Assembly: GCA_900314745.1 (NCBI GenBank)
Contig: OMWK01000001.1
Location: 1 to 64,000 of the forward strand
Direction: 5' to 3'
DNA length: 64,000 nucleotides
Source: an uncultured Eubacteriales bacterium
Lineage (GTDB): Bacteria; Bacillota; Clostridia; Saccharofermentanales; Saccharofermentanaceae
The translations under genes and the position numbers were made by a program. Positions 867 to 14,992 of this stretch are shown here, piece by piece. Under the pieces are notes generated by a model. It searched no databases and was not told the origin of the DNA. It saw only the letters and a list, made by a program, of their open reading frames with translations. The first letter of the stretch is position 1; every line of letters starts with the position of its first letter.

Positions 867-1229
867 ATGATGATCAAGTTATCTGACGCCGAATGGAAAA
901 TCGCAAGCTGTCTCTGGGAACAGGGCCCTATGACGATAACTGAACTTACAAGATATCTTAAGGACAACACCGGTTGGGCTAAGAACACTATTATTACTCT
1001 GCTTAAGCGTATGCAGGAAAAAGAAGCTGTAGGTTATGTTCAGGAGGATAGGGCAAAGAGATTCTACCCTCTCATAGACAAAACTGAAGCAGAGATAGAA
1101 GAAACGACCTCTTTTCTTGACAGAGTATATAAGGGCAATGTCGGCCTTATGATATCTAATCTAATTAGTTCAGATAAACTTACCAAAGAAGAGATTAAGG
1201 AGCTTCAGAGAATACTGGAGGAGGACTGA
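867..1229 (+). CDS. BlaI/MecI/CopY-family transcriptional repressor
   Basis: A 120-residue protein of the usual BlaI length. The N-terminal winged helix is recognisable (LSDAEWKIASCLWEQGPMTI, then a recognition helix around NTIITLLKRMQEK), and the second half is a helical dimerization region. A GGAGG site (859-863) serves either of two adjacent ATG codons; the second, at 870, is better spaced. The stop is 1 nt before the downstream M56 peptidase gene, the classical blaI-blaR1 order. BlaI repressors release DNA after cleavage triggered by the partner sensor-protease. The inducer here is not visible, and nothing shows that it is a beta-lactam. Confidence 0.9.
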   Translation: MMIKLSDAEWKIASCLWEQGPMTITELTRYLKDNTGWAKNTIITLLKRMQEKEAVGYVQEDRAKRFYPLIDKTEAEIEETTSFLDRVYKGNVGLMISNLISSDKLTKEEIKELQRILEED

Positions 1230-1230
1230 T

Positions 1231-3123
1231 ATGCTTCGGTATGTTATAGGTATTTCAGTAATTACTATCATAATTACCTTAATAAGGTTTCTTACCGATG
1301 GAAAGATTAGTCGTAAGTATCAGTATGCAATGTGGCTTGTAATACCTGCGTTTATGCTGCTATATCCTTTCGTAAACGTGACTGTTACGTTGCCATTTGT
1401 ACCTTTGCCTAATAATAAAGCTGAGTTCGCAGTCACTTATAATGGTGCTGATGCTGACGATGACATCAGTTTTGCCGATCATAGTTCACTCGCACCGATT
1501 GATTCTGATAACAACAGCATAGCGGTAATTCAGCAGGAGAATAATGAGATCAATTGGGAGGCTACATTTAAAATAACTTCATTGATTGTTTCGGGTTGTA
1601 TCTTCACGATGCTTCTTTTATATAACATAGGTTTCATTGCTTATGTAGCCAGAAGACGAAGCCTAATTAGAATTGATAGGGAGAGCGGTCTAAAAGTATA
1701 TAAGATTGATATTGCGGCAACACCGTTTCTTTTGGGGAGAAGCATATATATAAGGGACGAGGATGAGACTTTTTCGAGATATATACTATGCCATGAGGTG
1801 TGCCACTACAGGCAGGGGGATCGGCTCTGGATAATACTGCGGTATGTAGTATTAGTACTTAACTGGTACAACCCTCTTATTTGGGCATCATTTGTTCTTT
1901 CCGGTATTGATTGCGAGCTTGCATGCGATGAGAGAGCACTTATAGAACTTGGGCAGGAGGAAGCATCATCTTATGGAAACATGCTTCTTGAGCTCGCGAA
2001 AAATCATAGTGCCGACTCTTTAAACTTCACTGTATCTACGGGGGTGAAGGGTGCATTTGTTGTGATGAAGAAAAGAATAACCAGTATAAAACGTCCTCAC
2101 AAAAACAATAGAGTTATTCTCATAATCAGTATTTTGATAGTTTCAATAACCGCCGGATGTTCGCTTGTTGAATATGCTAGTGAAGAATCAGGTGTATTGA
2201 CATACAACTCGGAGGGAGAGTTGTCTACCGATGAGAGATTGTTTGGTGAGTGGTTAGGTGAATCCGATGGAACAGATGTTGTTTTCAGATTTTGGGATAA
2301 CAACACAGGTTCTATGACACTTGTCAGCTATGGATACGAAACAACCACGGAGTTTACTTACAGCGCTGACGGCACTTATCTGACTCTCTATGGGGAGGGG
2401 TTTGATGGCAATCGTGGCTTATATGCAGTTGGAGGCGATCTTTTGACCATTGTGCATGACGGAACTTTGTGTCTTAGGCGTAGTGTATCGATAATCAATG
2501 CTCCAAGTATCGGTTCTCTCCCTGATGGGTTATATACGGTTACAATGACTTCTAATGTTATTCCTGATGATAGAGGAAATGAAACATGTATGTTTTATCC
2601 ATGGACTCAATATGAAGTAAATCAGGATTTCATTGATTCACTCGCTACAGGGCAATCTATAGATCTAACAGATTGGGGCGGTTTTGGAATTATAACGATT
2701 CAGTATATAAGTACTGAAGCACAAGAATCGGAGAATTATATAGGGACAGATTACTCAGGCTTAAGAAAGAGTTTTACGACCGATACCACTTCATTTAGCT
2801 TCTATCAAGAAGAAGGATCTGACAAGTGGAACTTGTTCTCCTCTGGTTATCTCCCGGTCATGCAGCAATATGAGATGATGAGAATGGTCATTGCCGAAGA
2901 TTGCACAATATACGATGCATATTCTTTCCTGCATGGAGATCATCCTAATATGACTCCAGAAGAATATGAAGACGTTATTCAATTCCGAGACACTTCGCTT
3001 ACAGAAGGAGTATCAAACAGCATTAGCGATTTCTTCGATGTGTTCGGGTATACTCAATATGATTACACTGTTATCCGTGTTGAGAATAACGTGGTTACAG
3101 AAGTCTACTTCTGGTATGTATGA
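1231..3123 (+). CDS. BlaR1/MecR1-like M56 membrane metallopeptidase with an unrecognised sensor domain
   Basis: A 630-residue antirepressor. Two membrane segments lie near residues 1-20 and 33-50, another near 115-138. A zinc-peptidase core follows with HEVCH at 188-192 and a downstream DCELACDE segment expected to supply the third ligand. A final membrane segment (about 293-308) ends in TAGCS. The remaining 320 residues should be extracellular, but I do not see the penicillin-binding SxxK/SxN/KTG set of true BlaR1, so the signal is probably different. Translation starts at a GGAGGAGG site inside the end of blaI. In the BlaR1 model, ligand binding activates the peptidase, which inactivates BlaI. 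Confidence 0.85.
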   Translation: MLRYVIGISVITIIITLIRFLTDGKISRKYQYAMWLVIPAFMLLYPFVNVTVTLPFVPLPNNKAEFAVTYNGADADDDISFADHSSLAPIDSDNNSIAVIQQENNEINWEATFKITSLIVSGCIFTMLLLYNIGFIAYVARRRSLIRIDRESGLKVYKIDIAATPFLLGRSIYIRDEDETFSRYILCHEVCHYRQGDRLWIILRYVVLVLNWYNPLIWASFVLSGIDCELACDERALIELGQEEASSYGNMLLELAKNHSADSLNFTVSTGVKGAFVVMKKRITSIKRPHKNNRVILIISILIVSITAGCSLVEYASEESGVLTYNSEGELSTDERLFGEWLGESDGTDVVFRFWDNNTGSMTLVSYGYETTTEFTYSADGTYLTLYGEGFDGNRGLYAVGGDLLTIVHDGTLCLRRSVSIINAPSIGSLPDGLYTVTMTSNVIPDDRGNETCMFYPWTQYEVNQDFIDSLATGQSIDLTDWGGFGIITIQYISTEAQESENYIGTDYSGLRKSFTTDTTSFSFYQEEGSDKWNLFSSGYLPVMQQYEMMRMVIAEDCTIYDAYSFLHGDHPNMTPEEYEDVIQFRDTSLTEGVSNSISDFFDVFGYTQYDYTVIRVENNVVTEVYFWYV

Positions 3124-3347: not shown

Positions 3348-3356
3348 TGATATAAT
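3348..3356 (+). promoter_or_regulatory. Extended -10 promoter of the VYGPP peptide gene
   Basis: TGATATAAT (3348-3356) is a perfect extended -10 element. It lies 24 bp before the peptide start codon, with a GAGGAGGG ribosome site at about 3365-3372 in between. There is no good -35, as is common for extended -10 promoters. The 5' leader would be short (about 18 nt). Confidence 0.5.
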
Positions 3357-3380
3357 CAAACTGTTGAGGAGGGCATTAAG

Positions 3381-3686
3381 ATGAAGAAGCCAAGTAATGA
3401 TAAGATTACTGCCGCGAAGATTATTGCCGGTGTAGTAGCTTCGCTTACTATCGGTGCCAATATAACAGGATGCGTTTATGGACCGCCGCCGGAAGAGACA
3501 GCTTCCTCCACACCGGAGACCAAGACTGAGGAAACAGCAGCTCCTGAACCGACCGTCGATCCTGACGATAATATTAACGCAGACGTTTATGGTCCTCCGG
3601 AAGATTTCAATGTAGATAATAATGAGGTTCCTTGTGTCTACGGACCTCCGGAAGCCTTCGAAGAAGCTACTGATGAATCCCATTAA
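3381..3686 (+). CDS. Small lipoprotein-like precursor with three VYGPP repeats, putative radical SAM substrate
   Basis: A 101-residue peptide with a strong GAGGAGGG site. Residues 1-30 look like a lipoprotein signal peptide (lysines, then a hydrophobic stretch, then ITGC with Cys31). The acidic Pro/Glu/Thr-rich remainder holds three copies of VYGPP: residues 32-36, 69-73 and 86-90. The first and third follow a Cys (CVYGPP) and the second follows Asp. The last 14 nt overlap the start of the radical SAM gene, which implies coupled expression. A short repeated core beside a SPASM enzyme is the usual layout of a RiPP precursor. I do not recognise a named family; modification of the Tyr or Cys in each repeat is inference. 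Confidence 0.7.
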   Translation: MKKPSNDKITAAKIIAGVVASLTIGANITGCVYGPPPEETASSTPETKTEETAAPEPTVDPDDNINADVYGPPEDFNVDNNEVPCVYGPPEAFEEATDESH

Positions 3687-4764
3687 TCCTGGTATCGCAA
3701 GATTAAAGACCGAACACTTGGATCAGCTTGCCGATCATGTCGACGGCCTTTACGGAAAGCCTCAGTTGAGGCATCTGTTTTTTGAACTCACCTCCGCCTG
3801 TAACGAGAGGTGTTTTCATTGCGGAAGCAACTGCTCCGTTCCGGGTAAGGATGAGCTCACCACAGAGGAGTTTAAGTCCATCTTGGATCAGGTCAAAGAG
3901 GACTTCGATATCAACCGCCTGCAGTTATGCATAACAGGTGGCGAGCCTCTCATAAGGAAAGATTTCTTTGAGATAATGAACTACGCCAGAAGCCTGGGAT
4001 ACCACTGGGGCATGACGTCGAATGCGACTCTTATCACCAAAGAAGTCGCACATAAGCTTGCAGAAGCCGGAATGGGTACGATATCCGTTTCCATCGACGG
4101 TCTGCCCGAGACGCACGACAGGCTTCGCGGCATGAAGAACGCATACAAGCTTGCCATGGAAGGCATACAGAACCTCATAGACGAGAACGCATTCAAAGCA
4201 ATACAGGTAACTACTGTATTTAATCACGAGAACCTTAAGGAGATCGATGATCTTTTCGAGGTGATGAAGGGCATCGACATTGATTCGTGGCGTGTAATTA
4301 ACCTGGAGCCGATAGGGCGTGCTTTGACGCGTCCGGAGCTTATGTGTACTCCCGATGACCTCCGTACTATGTTCGAGTTCATTCGCCAAGCTCGAAAAGC
4401 AGGTTACCCCGTCGAGTACGGATGCAGCCACTACCTTGGACTCGACTATGAAGTTGAGGTGCGCGAGTGGTACTGGCTATGCAACGCCGGCGTGTATACC
4501 GCTTCCATCATGAGTAACGGCGACATAGGTGCGTGCCTTGATATCGAGCGTGACCCGAAGGTTATACAGGGTAATATCAGACACGACAGATTCAAGGATG
4601 TCTGGGAGAACCGTTTCGAGATATTCAGACGTGACAAGGCGGACTCTTCATCAAAGTGCCGTGACTGCTCACACAAGAAATACTGTCGTGGTGATGCATA
4701 TCATTCCTGGGACTATAAGAAGGATGAACCGCTCGTTTGCATGAAGGGCGTGCTGTTTGATTGA
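3673..4764 (+). CDS. Radical SAM/SPASM enzyme, putative peptide maturase
   Basis: About 363 residues from the ATG at 3673, chosen over an upstream in-frame ATG at 3622 because it sits just before the peptide stop and the homologous region starts there. The N-terminal CNERCFHC is the CxxxCxxC motif binding the SAM 4Fe-4S cluster (Cys43, 47, 50), followed by the glycine-rich TGGEPL. The C-terminus has a SPASM layout: C-x12-G-x4-C, then C-x2-C-x5-C, and a final Cys. The Cys normally found at x3 after the third of these is Ala (CRGDA), so six of the seven SPASM cysteines remain. Related enzymes (PqqE, sactipeptide and cyclophane synthases) crosslink ribosomal peptides. The adjacent VYGPP peptide is the obvious substrate. 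Confidence 0.8.
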   Translation: MNPINPGIARLKTEHLDQLADHVDGLYGKPQLRHLFFELTSACNERCFHCGSNCSVPGKDELTTEEFKSILDQVKEDFDINRLQLCITGGEPLIRKDFFEIMNYARSLGYHWGMTSNATLITKEVAHKLAEAGMGTISVSIDGLPETHDRLRGMKNAYKLAMEGIQNLIDENAFKAIQVTTVFNHENLKEIDDLFEVMKGIDIDSWRVINLEPIGRALTRPELMCTPDDLRTMFEFIRQARKAGYPVEYGCSHYLGLDYEVEVREWYWLCNAGVYTASIMSNGDIGACLDIERDPKVIQGNIRHDRFKDVWENRFEIFRRDKADSSSKCRDCSHKKYCRGDAYHSWDYKKDEPLVCMKGVLFD

Positions 4765-8614: not shown

Positions 8615-9880
8615 TTATCTCCAGATATCCGAAGGATCAGAACCGTAGTCACCGCTGATCAGTACAGGCTGGTTGATGCCGGGCTGATCGAAGGGGATCG
8701 TAGAACTCTCGTTGTAGATCCTGATCTGCGAATTGCCTGCGCAGTGCTCCCAGATCCATCTCGCGTCGTTAGCGTTAAGGATGATGTCTCCGTTCGTAGC
8801 GGCAGTTCCGAGCTGGTTATATGCTGATACTGACATCGTATCGTGGTTGCCCTGAACATAGTACCATGCTGTGTGGAACATCGTTGTTCCGTTAATGACT
8901 GAAATATACTGATTGTATCTTGTCTGTCCGTTAACTACCTGTGAACCCCATGACGCACCCTTGGAGATATTGAATGTTCCCTGAGGTGTCTCGGAACTCG
9001 GTGCACCTGTTGAACATCTCATAGCCATAACGGGGATGTTGTACTGTCCGCCGGGTGTATCCTGAGCGTAAACGATGATCGTGTTTGTCTGAAGGTTAAG
9101 TGAGAGGAAGTAAGATGTCTGATTTCCGATCAGGCTGCTTACGTTCTGAACGAGTCTGTAGTTATCGTCGAAGTAGTACTTAAGACCGTCGATGAACTTC
9201 CATCCCTTTACGGCCTTACCGTTGTTCTCGGGATCGAAGTAATATCTGTAGCCGTCGTACCTCTGCCAGCCCGTGAGCTTGATGCCCTGATCGTTATAGA
9301 AGTAGACACCGTCGGATTCACGGGAGAGTCTTCCTGTGTTTGTAGGAGCGGTAGCGGCTGTTGAAGTTGTTGTTGAGGCAGGTGCATTCTGAACGGCAGC
9401 GGTTGTGCTCGCATCAGCATTAAGTGTTCCTACTGCGATGTTATATGCCTGACAGATCTGAGCATACTCCTGCGAACCTACAAAGCCTGCGAGAATATTG
9501 ACTCTTGCAGTTCCGCCTGCAAGGAAGTTCAACCAGTACTGAAGTCCTGCGGGATCGCACTCACGGCCGAGGATTACATTGTAAAGTGTTCTTACATACT
9601 GCTCGTTGCTTGTGTTGAAGCTTCTGTACTCCGCGCTCTCGAAGAAACCGTAAGCGCATGTGGCACCTGTTGTCTCACCGCTTAAGATCCTTGATTTCCA
9701 GTACTCGTAGCCTGCGGCCTCGGATCTTCTGCCGAGTACCATTGTGTACATTCTCTCAACGAACTGTCCGACGTACTCGTCACGCGTCAAAGCGCTGACC
9801 GGAGCAGCCTTCGGGATCATGCAAACAAAGCTTGCTATTACCAGGACAGTCGAGATAAACTTGACCAGCTTTTTTTTCAT
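8615..9880 (-). CDS. Secreted DUF4214 / cell-wall repeat / YkuD-like protein, catalytic site lost
   Basis: 421 residues from the ATG at 9880, which follows AAGGAGAGAG; an in-frame codon at 9922 has no ribosome site. In order: signal peptide (1-30), DUF4214 domain (about 32-145), low-complexity Ala/Thr linker, two or three aromatic cell-wall-binding-type repeats (GWQRYDGYRYYFD, GWKFIDGLKYYFD), and a YkuD L,D-transpeptidase fold (about 255-395). The paralogue next door has SHGCIRL; here the same place reads TNGDIIL (Thr362, Asn363, Gly364, Asp365). The nucleophilic Cys and its His are both replaced, while the outer His336 and MRCSTG remain. It should be inactive and may bind wall peptides as a structural or regulatory partner. 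Confidence 0.85.
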   Translation of the reverse strand: MKKKLVKFISTVLVIASFVCMIPKAAPVSALTRDEYVGQFVERMYTMVLGRRSEAAGYEYWKSRILSGETTGATCAYGFFESAEYRSFNTSNEQYVRTLYNVILGRECDPAGLQYWLNFLAGGTARVNILAGFVGSQEYAQICQAYNIAVGTLNADASTTAAVQNAPASTTTSTAATAPTNTGRLSRESDGVYFYNDQGIKLTGWQRYDGYRYYFDPENNGKAVKGWKFIDGLKYYFDDNYRLVQNVSSLIGNQTSYFLSLNLQTNTIIVYAQDTPGGQYNIPVMAMRCSTGAPSSETPQGTFNISKGASWGSQVVNGQTRYNQYISVINGTTMFHTAWYYVQGNHDTMSVSAYNQLGTAATNGDIILNANDARWIWEHCAGNSQIRIYNESSTIPFDQPGINQPVLISGDYGSDPSDIWR

Positions 9881-9972
9881 AATCTCTCTCCTTAAAGTAT
9901 TCCTTACAAATAATTCTAACAATACTCTTCAGAGGGACTATTTAAATTAGATTACAAATTGTTTCAATTATG

Positions 9973-11178
9973 TTACACGTCCGTCGGATCGTGACCGTAG
10001 TCTCCGTTGATACGGATAGCGGGAACAGGCTGCGGCCTGTCGAAAGGCGCGGGTTCGTTTGAAGTGAATAGATATACATTAGATGTATTCGCGCAGTTCT
10101 CGTAGATCCACCTCGCATCAGCCACACAGAGCCTGATGCAGCCGTGTGAAGCCGGATTTCCGAGACGGTTATACTGACTTACCGACAAAGAGTCGCGATT
10201 GCCGTTCTCGTGATACCAGCATGAATGGAACAGATAGTTGCCGGATATCTGACATGTGTACTGTCCGTATACCAAGGATCCGTCATTACCGAGAACGCCC
10301 CAGTAGCTTCCTCTTCTTATGGGATATGTGCCCTCGATGTTATCGTAACCTGCTCTTGCAGTAGAACAGACCATCGCTCTTACGGGGATGTTGTAAGGAC
10401 CGCCCGGAGTTTCCTGAGCGTAGATCATGACAGTCTGCGTCGCATGGTTTACGGTTACGTAGTACGAAGACTGGCGGCCGATGATCGAATCGACGTTCTG
10501 TACCAGTCTGTGGTCGGAATCAAAGTAGTACTTAAGACCTCCGATATAAGTCCATCCCGACGCCGCGCGTCCGGTTGCAGGATCAAAATAATACCTGTTT
10601 CCGCTTATTCTCTGCCAGCCCGTAAGACGGGTTCCGGATGTGGAATTGAAGTAGAGGTTTCCTTCCTCATCCGTTACCAGATTACCGGGATTACCGATCA
10701 TGACGACATTGGGATCCATCGGGATCTCACCTCTGGTGATGCCGTAGGAATTGCAGATCGAAGAATACTCGTTAGAATTAACAAGTCCTGCGAGAACGTA
10801 AAGTCTGGGAGTTCCGCCGGCAAGATAGCTTAACCATGTCGTAAGTCCCTCAGGATCTACGGTTCTTCCGAGGATTACCGAATACAGTGTTTTTACATAC
10901 TGCTCATCGGTCTTGTTCTTGGCCTTGTACTCATCACTTTCAAAGAAACCGATCGCACAATCCGCACCCGTGAGCTGACCACTCAGGATTCCCTGTGACC
11001 AGTAGTTCATTCCGTATGCATCCGATGTCCTTCCGAGCACCATTGTATACATGCGTTCTACGAACTGTCCGACATACTCCTCGCGGGTTGTGGCATTTAC
11101 CTGAATGTTAAATACGGAGAGAAGAATGCTCGCCGTAAGGATTGCCACCATTGCCTTGATCGATCTTTTAAACTTCAT
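9973..11178 (-). CDS. Secreted L,D-transpeptidase with DUF4214 and cell-wall repeats
   Basis: 401 residues: signal peptide (1-29), DUF4214 (about 31-145), aromatic repeats (GWQRISGNRYYFD, GWTYIGGLKYYFD) and a YkuD domain (about 236-375) with the full SHGCIRL active site (His345, Cys347) and His318. L,D-transpeptidases make 3-3 crosslinks in peptidoglycan or attach proteins to it outside the membrane. DUF4214 often occurs on secreted proteins of anaerobic Firmicutes; its ligand is unclear. Same domain order as the gene at 8615-9880, so they are tandem duplicates, but only this copy can be catalytic. An AAGGGG site precedes the ATG. Confidence 0.9.
   Translation of the reverse strand: MKFKRSIKAMVAILTASILLSVFNIQVNATTREEYVGQFVERMYTMVLGRTSDAYGMNYWSQGILSGQLTGADCAIGFFESDEYKAKNKTDEQYVKTLYSVILGRTVDPEGLTTWLSYLAGGTPRLYVLAGLVNSNEYSSICNSYGITRGEIPMDPNVVMIGNPGNLVTDEEGNLYFNSTSGTRLTGWQRISGNRYYFDPATGRAASGWTYIGGLKYYFDSDHRLVQNVDSIIGRQSSYYVTVNHATQTVMIYAQETPGGPYNIPVRAMVCSTARAGYDNIEGTYPIRRGSYWGVLGNDGSLVYGQYTCQISGNYLFHSCWYHENGNRDSLSVSQYNRLGNPASHGCIRLCVADARWIYENCANTSNVYLFTSNEPAPFDRPQPVPAIRINGDYGHDPTDV

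Positions 11179-11261: not shown

Positions 11262-14992
<3,731 letters not shown>

Follow-up and report, generated by a model that had tools for sequence, protein, structure and literature searches.

The splicease PlpXY recognizes the substrate motif X-Y-G and removes a tyramine equivalent (C8H9NO), leaving an alpha-keto-beta-amino residue (PMC10533398, PMC11002830). A tag derived from PlpA2, PIRPLYGLPI, again contains Y-G-x-P (PMC10533398). PlpX acts together with PlpY, an RRE protein, and the ketoamide is described in a review as a protease-inhibiting moiety (PMC11002830). The mycofactocin maturase MftC acts on a Val-Tyr peptide and joins Val to Tyr (PMC9062424).

A further system is visible in genome annotation. 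In the NCBI annotation of Parabacteroides and Treponema, radical SAM enzymes of family TIGR04133 (rSAM_w_lipo) directly follow a "radical SAM-associated putative lipoprotein". In Phocaeicola, an unannotated lipoprotein lies just downstream of the enzyme. Neither TIGR04133 nor its lipoprotein is named in any paper within our search, a scope that does not extend to the splicease studies Scott 2022 (Chem) and Richter 2024 (Chem Sci). The same literature search returned no paper with both YGPP and "radical SAM", and no report of the chemistry of the pair described below.

A putative two-gene operon

The window is the whole analysed stretch of 64,000 nucleotides, from a bacterium of the gut. It contains the following features of interest, all on the plus strand.

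3348-3356 (+): extended -10-like element TGATATAAT, likely promoter of both genes
3367-3372 (+): AGGAGG, ribosome-binding site of the precursor gene
3381-3686 (+): open reading frame of the VYGPP-repeat lipoprotein-type precursor, 101 residues, with homologues upstream of the enzyme gene in other genomes
3381-3470 (+): lipoprotein signal peptide, residues 1-30 (MKKPSNDKITAAKIIAGVVASLTIGANITG-C), with a matching lipobox in relatives
3471-3473 (+): lipobox Cys31, right after the signal peptide
3474-3488 (+): core 1, VYGPP, immediately 3' of the lipobox Cys
3585-3599 (+): core 2, VYGPP, preceded by Asp
3636-3650 (+): core 3, VYGPP, preceded by Cys
3673-4764 (+): radical SAM/SPASM enzyme, 363 residues from ATG 3673 (PF04055, PF13186; best NCBIfam model TIGR04133)
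3799-3834 (+): CxxxCxxC SAM-cluster motif (Cys43, Cys47, Cys50), extended by Cys54 (CGSNC)
4423-4740 (+): SPASM region with Cys251, Cys270, Cys288, Cys329, Cys332, Cys338 and Cys356, and with Ala342 and His344

The -10-like element has no -35 hexamer and is not listed by a consensus promoter scan, which requires one. The precursor has a charged, Lys-rich N-terminus, a hydrophobic stretch and a lipobox of the [LVI]-[ASTVI]-[GAS]-C type (MKKPSNDK..ANITGC). The preliminary description of a 101-residue lipoprotein-type precursor with three VYGPP cores, two of them CVYGPP (cores 1 and 3; core 2 is DVYGPP), thus agrees with the open reading frame and its ITG-C lipobox. The signal is of the ordinary Sec type for lipoproteins, and the proposed membrane anchoring is supported. 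Because the three copies of the core are encoded by different codons (GTTTATGGACCGCCG, GTTTATGGTCCTCCG and GTCTACGGACCTCCG), selection acts on the peptide and not on the DNA. In the source genome, the VYGPP codon pattern is found only in this reading frame. By homology with the starts in relatives, ATG 3673 is the most probable start codon of the enzyme, and it gives the 14-nucleotide overlap with the precursor gene noted earlier.

Some other regions of the window deserve mention. A BlaI-type repressor and a BlaR1/M56-type membrane peptidase are encoded directly upstream of the operon (867-3123, plus strand). The M56 protein has a long extra C-terminal region, and the two genes are not conserved with the operon. 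At the end of the rpoC frame (11339-14992, minus strand) is a long stretch, rich in Ser and Arg, with no resemblance to RpoC; a frameshift at about 11.7 kb, either an assembly error or real, would account for it. Two adjacent, similar secreted proteins are encoded at 8615-9922 and 9973-11178 (minus strand), the former with DUF4214, choline-binding repeats and a YkuD L,D-transpeptidase domain.

Conservation of the pair

A scan of 84,980 species genomes yielded 61 loci. In sixty of them the encoded enzyme is closely related to that of the window (52-93% identity), and most of these are from MAGs of Clostridia, Erysipelotrichaceae and Coriobacteriia from ruminant or herbivore guts; the remaining locus, L064, is a distant match in Bacteroidetes. 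DNA upstream of the enzyme start is available for 58 close loci. A VYGPP-repeat reading frame precedes the enzyme on the same strand in 55 of these, mostly overlapping it or a few bases away and at most 283 bases away. Homologues of the enzyme are thus regularly accompanied by the peptide, the opposite of what the preliminary description had named as grounds for refutation. At three Lachnospiraceae loci (L054-L056) no such frame precedes the enzyme, but each of these genomes has a cluster of three VYGPP codon runs in an unlinked gene for a DUF805 membrane protein. Two VYGPP carriers stand in tandem ahead of a single enzyme gene at L015 (3414-3966) and L067 (914-1466).

The same association is seen within the genus of the window (34 genomes). 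The 22 genomes with the enzyme all have VYGPP codons directly upstream of it, and none of the 12 genomes without the enzyme has the peptide. These 12 have either no VYGPP match or a single isolated one, and the five isolated matches were rejected as real peptides, being in short or unrelated frames. A random split of 22/22 versus 0/12 would have a probability of about 2e-9, a figure to be read with the caveat that related genomes are not independent. Chance pairing was rejected from this co-occurrence and from the nature of the isolated matches; the recurrence of the adjacency in two phyla is also far beyond chance.

A conserved third gene (protease, exporter or RRE protein) was sought in the 60 loci and none was found, in keeping with the earlier remark that no transporter or protease gene is adjacent. 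The search also leaves the system without a counterpart of the RRE partner PlpY. A recurrent cluster of ABC ATPases was rejected as a conserved partner, since these are generic ATPases at scattered positions. Taken together, the genomic distribution indicates that the VYGPP peptide and the enzyme form a real and widespread substrate-enzyme pair, as first proposed for this locus, and that the same pair recurs in many ruminant-gut bacteria.

The VYGPP unit and its carriers

We gathered 288 unique sites with the pattern YGP, so that Y, G and the first P are fixed by the search. The consensus unit is [FY]-D-P-x-x-N-E-x-x-D-V-Y-G-P-P-E-D-F. Val is found in 95% of the sites, with other residues at this position in the rest, and the X-Y-G motif of the spliceases is therefore present throughout; the second Pro is found in 96%. 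The core also occurs in variants such as VYGAP and EYEAP, which look rare. In many units the core is followed by acidic residues, and the acidic residues near it vary. Cys precedes Val in only 45 of the 288 sites, where it is often the lipobox Cys itself, and Asp, Thr, Ala and others occur elsewhere. The emphasis first placed on CVYGPP is therefore not supported.

Each protein carries 1-7 repeats. In most Bacillota the carriers are lipoproteins. Those of Coriobacteriia are lipoproteins with RRxFTAAG signals of the twin-arginine type, as recognized by eye (a profile search gave no match). Elsewhere the cores lie at the C-terminus of a DUF805 membrane protein (L058 and the three unlinked cases), or they are carried by a Big_2 (Ig-like) protein of the cell surface (L042) or by a dockerin protein (L046). 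The core and an exported or anchored destination are constant across carriers. Separately, three Lachnospiraceae zinc-ribbon proteins (L115, L128 and L130) contain a single CVYGPPPIER, with no signal peptide seen; these may be additional, cytoplasmic substrates or chance occurrences.

The enzyme

The enzyme scores above the cut-offs of Pfam PF04055 (Radical_SAM) and PF13186 (SPASM). In an alignment of 40 homologues, Cys43, Cys47 and Cys50 and the seven cysteines listed above for the SPASM region are invariant, and Cys54 is at least 90% conserved; Cys54 is also found in TIGR04103-like relatives. Compared with the SPASM pattern CX9-15GX4C..CX2CX5CX3C..C, the last Cys of the CX2CX5CX3C stretch is replaced by Ala342, as the preliminary description had noticed in speaking of a six-cysteine SPASM domain. 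Its view that one of seven cysteines was lost is too simple, however, because Cys251 and His344 are extra, lineage-specific and invariant in the same alignment. Cys251, a residue other than Cys at 342, and His344 occur together in the VYGPP and TIGR04133 clades and in no other enzymes compared. The ligands of the auxiliary clusters have thus probably been rearranged, and not merely reduced by one Cys.

The AlphaFold model of the enzyme is confident (mean pLDDT 93). Its best solved structural matches, SuiB, ChlB, anSME, SkfB, CteB and PqqE, all act on peptides or proteins. The thioether maturase CteB is the closest solved relative by sequence. None of the PDB matches is labelled as a splicease, which in itself proves nothing. 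In the model, a single helix precedes the radical SAM core, too little to accommodate an RRE domain at the N-terminus.

Relationship to TIGR04133 and to TIGR04103

The best NCBIfam model for the enzyme is TIGR04133, with 274 bits and an E value of 1.5e-81. Because this is below the cut-off of 425, the enzyme is regarded as belonging to a sister group of TIGR04133 and not as a member. Maximum-likelihood trees also place the VYGPP clade as sister to the TIGR04133 clade, although the deep branches are long and the deep tree is uncertain. The enzyme has all four features by which we defined the TIGR04133 clade by comparison (Cys54, Cys251, no Cys at 342, His344), and the adjacent putative lipoprotein of that family has its equivalent in the signal peptide and lipobox of the window precursor and most relatives. 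Around the lipid anchor, the partners in Parabacteroides, Treponema and Phocaeicola have the sequences CGENGEIPCEYGSP, CYGMP and CDSDGPGNELCEYGTP, with the motifs CEYGSP, CEYGTP and CYGMP. A search for further TIGR04133 enzymes in two Bacteroidota orders gave nothing new. The pair had been described as matching no named family. The TIGR04133/lipoprotein association is in fact already named by NCBI, and the VYGPP pair, related to it yet below the cut-off, appears from the sequences to be its multi-core variant.

The nearest sampled outgroup in the tree, which does not include the characterized PlpX, is a clade resembling TIGR04103 (nif11-class peptide radical SAM maturase 3). We take this family to be IPR026482, that of PlpX. 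The tested members of the clade have TIGR04103 as their best or second-best model and are far below the family cut-off. The window enzyme itself reaches 120 bits against TIGR04103 (cut-off 725), less than against heme-pathway and mycofactocin models. No TIGR04103 enzyme above the cut-off was found in the 398 genomes searched from the phylum of the window or in the 396 from the phylum of G061, nor was one seen among the plasmid matches listed.

Two TIGR04103-like genes are preceded by peptides with an XYG motif. At L170 (1094-1480), the peptide is an NHLP-type precursor (..GGAVNLNLGITTAYGIARPG.., with AYG), and at L134 (2698-2910), on an Agathobacter rectalis plasmid, it contains ..GPVMYGTGVRM, with MYG. 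Both loci, from Bacillota, are candidate spliceotide systems in their own right. In Bacteroidota, TIGR04103-like enzymes directly follow a conserved small protein (RLHLKFDPSVVMYLVI.DKLL..) without a YG motif (L107, 1027-1365; L111, 927-1301).

Proposed reaction and alternatives

The enzyme very probably modifies the VYGPP core in one way or another. The sequences themselves show that the two genes are paired, that the motif is kept, that the carriers are anchored or exported, and that the enzyme is related to TIGR04133 and to SPASM enzymes that modify peptides. From these we infer YG as the modified site, splicing as the chemistry, and the biological role. Y-G is constant in the VYGPP and TIGR04133 clades, and is preceded by V, L, M, I, E or the lipobox Cys. 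The residue after it is P, S, T or M, usually with P next. Since Y-G is constant with a variable X, since X-Y-G is the motif of PlpXY, and since the nearest sampled outgroup is TIGR04103-like, with two members beside XYG peptides, we favor excision of tyramine to give a ketoamide (-135 Da per site). We give this reaction an even chance, and it would be the likeliest single one. By analogy, the enzyme most probably works like a splicease. The crosslink of -2 Da per repeat suggested at the outset is not our favored prediction, because a constant Y-G with variable X points to backbone chemistry at X-Y-G.

The near-constant Val and the Pro-Pro exceed what X-Y-G requires, and other chemistry could explain them. 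A radical reaction at Tyr, Val or Pro that leaves the backbone intact (crosslink, epimerization or oxidation) is a serious if lesser possibility. Candidate crosslinks are a three-residue cyclophane, a Tyr-Glu/Asp C-C bond as made by PqqE, and a Val Cbeta-Tyr bond as made by MftC. SPASM enzymes of the same fold do crosslink, SuiB, ChlB and PqqE being among the best structural matches; Val is almost constant, and MftC links Val to Tyr (PMC9062424); acidic residues are frequent after the core. Yet those acidic residues vary, and the TIGR04133 clade keeps only Y-G and the Pro two residues after Gly. A fixed side-chain partner is missing there because the residues before Tyr and after Gly vary. A thioether formed by the Cys before Val would suit the two CVYGPP cores of the window and the proximity to CteB, but this Cys is not conserved. 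We therefore rejected thioether chemistry at CVYGPP, which is the least probable of the readings considered.

It is also improbable that a structural lipoprotein and a metabolic enzyme, for instance of heme synthesis, are mere neighbors. The heme-pathway models AhbD and NirJ are among the better scorers below TIGR04133, but the best profile places the enzyme in no known metabolic family, an outcome raised beforehand as one that would speak against a peptide substrate. Such an arrangement is also difficult to reconcile with the perfect co-occurrence in the genus, with the persistence of the motif when its carrier is replaced or unlinked, and with the YG lipoprotein partner of the sister family TIGR04133.

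Returning to tyramine excision, we propose the following scheme. The first gene of the operon would encode the membrane-anchored carrier, in this case a lipoprotein whose three V-Y-G-P-P cores lie in an acidic linker that is probably disordered, and the second a stand-alone radical SAM/SPASM enzyme. The enzyme would act on each core before export, recognizing the core unit itself and not a leader held by a separate binding domain. The signal peptide would then direct the product to the membrane, where the lipobox Cys would be lipidated. Reactive ketoamides would face outward and perhaps trap proteases or other nucleophiles; that a surface ketoamide array could trap proteases is the weakest step. 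The complete proposal, in which radical SAM enzymes edit the backbone of cell-surface proteins (lipoproteins, DUF805, Ig-like and dockerin proteins) by turning VYG into ketoamide arrays with neither a RiPP leader nor an RRE, is tentative, and we hold it somewhat less likely than the reaction alone.

If it is correct, the ketoamide chemistry of spliceotides would be a widespread way of modifying surface proteins in ruminant-gut Bacillota and Coriobacteria. The site of modification would be set by a short, repeated tag transferred during evolution among unrelated carriers, and the system would offer a compact, leader-free and multi-site route for introducing electrophiles into proteins. The TIGR04133/lipoprotein pairs of Bacteroidota and Treponema would gain a testable substrate site, YGxP. 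Even with a different chemistry, a constant tag, a fixed partner enzyme and changing carriers make the modification directly testable.

Comparison with known systems

The closest system is the TIGR04133/lipoprotein pair of Bacteroidota and Treponema. Both show the same gene order or adjacency, a lipoprotein-type partner and Y-G-x-P near the anchor, and their enzymes share Cys54, Cys251 and His344 and lack the SPASM Cys342. The TIGR04133 partner has one YGxP before a folded domain, whereas the VYGPP carriers have 1-7 cores in a linker, include DUF805, Ig-like and dockerin proteins, and belong to Bacillota and Coriobacteriia.

With PlpXY, the window system shares the X-Y-G motif and Y-G-x-P as in PlpA2, and with the TIGR04103-like enzymes CxxxCxxCGSxC. 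It differs in having no NHLP/Nif11 leader or RRE partner, an exported and anchored carrier, altered SPASM ligands and a TIGR04103 score far below the cut-off. Cys251 and His344 also set the VYGPP clade apart from TIGR04103-like enzymes. SuiB, CteB, SkfB and ChlB have the same overall fold and SPASM domain but crosslink at other motifs, and nothing in the alignment with the enzyme corresponds to the N-terminal part of SuiB ahead of residue 97. MftC is likewise a SPASM enzyme acting on a Val-Tyr peptide, and the window enzyme scores 139 bits against its profile. However, the MftC site is a C-terminal, decarboxylated Tyr whereas VYGPP is internal, and in the tree MftC lies outside the group formed by the TIGR04133 and TIGR04103-like enzymes.
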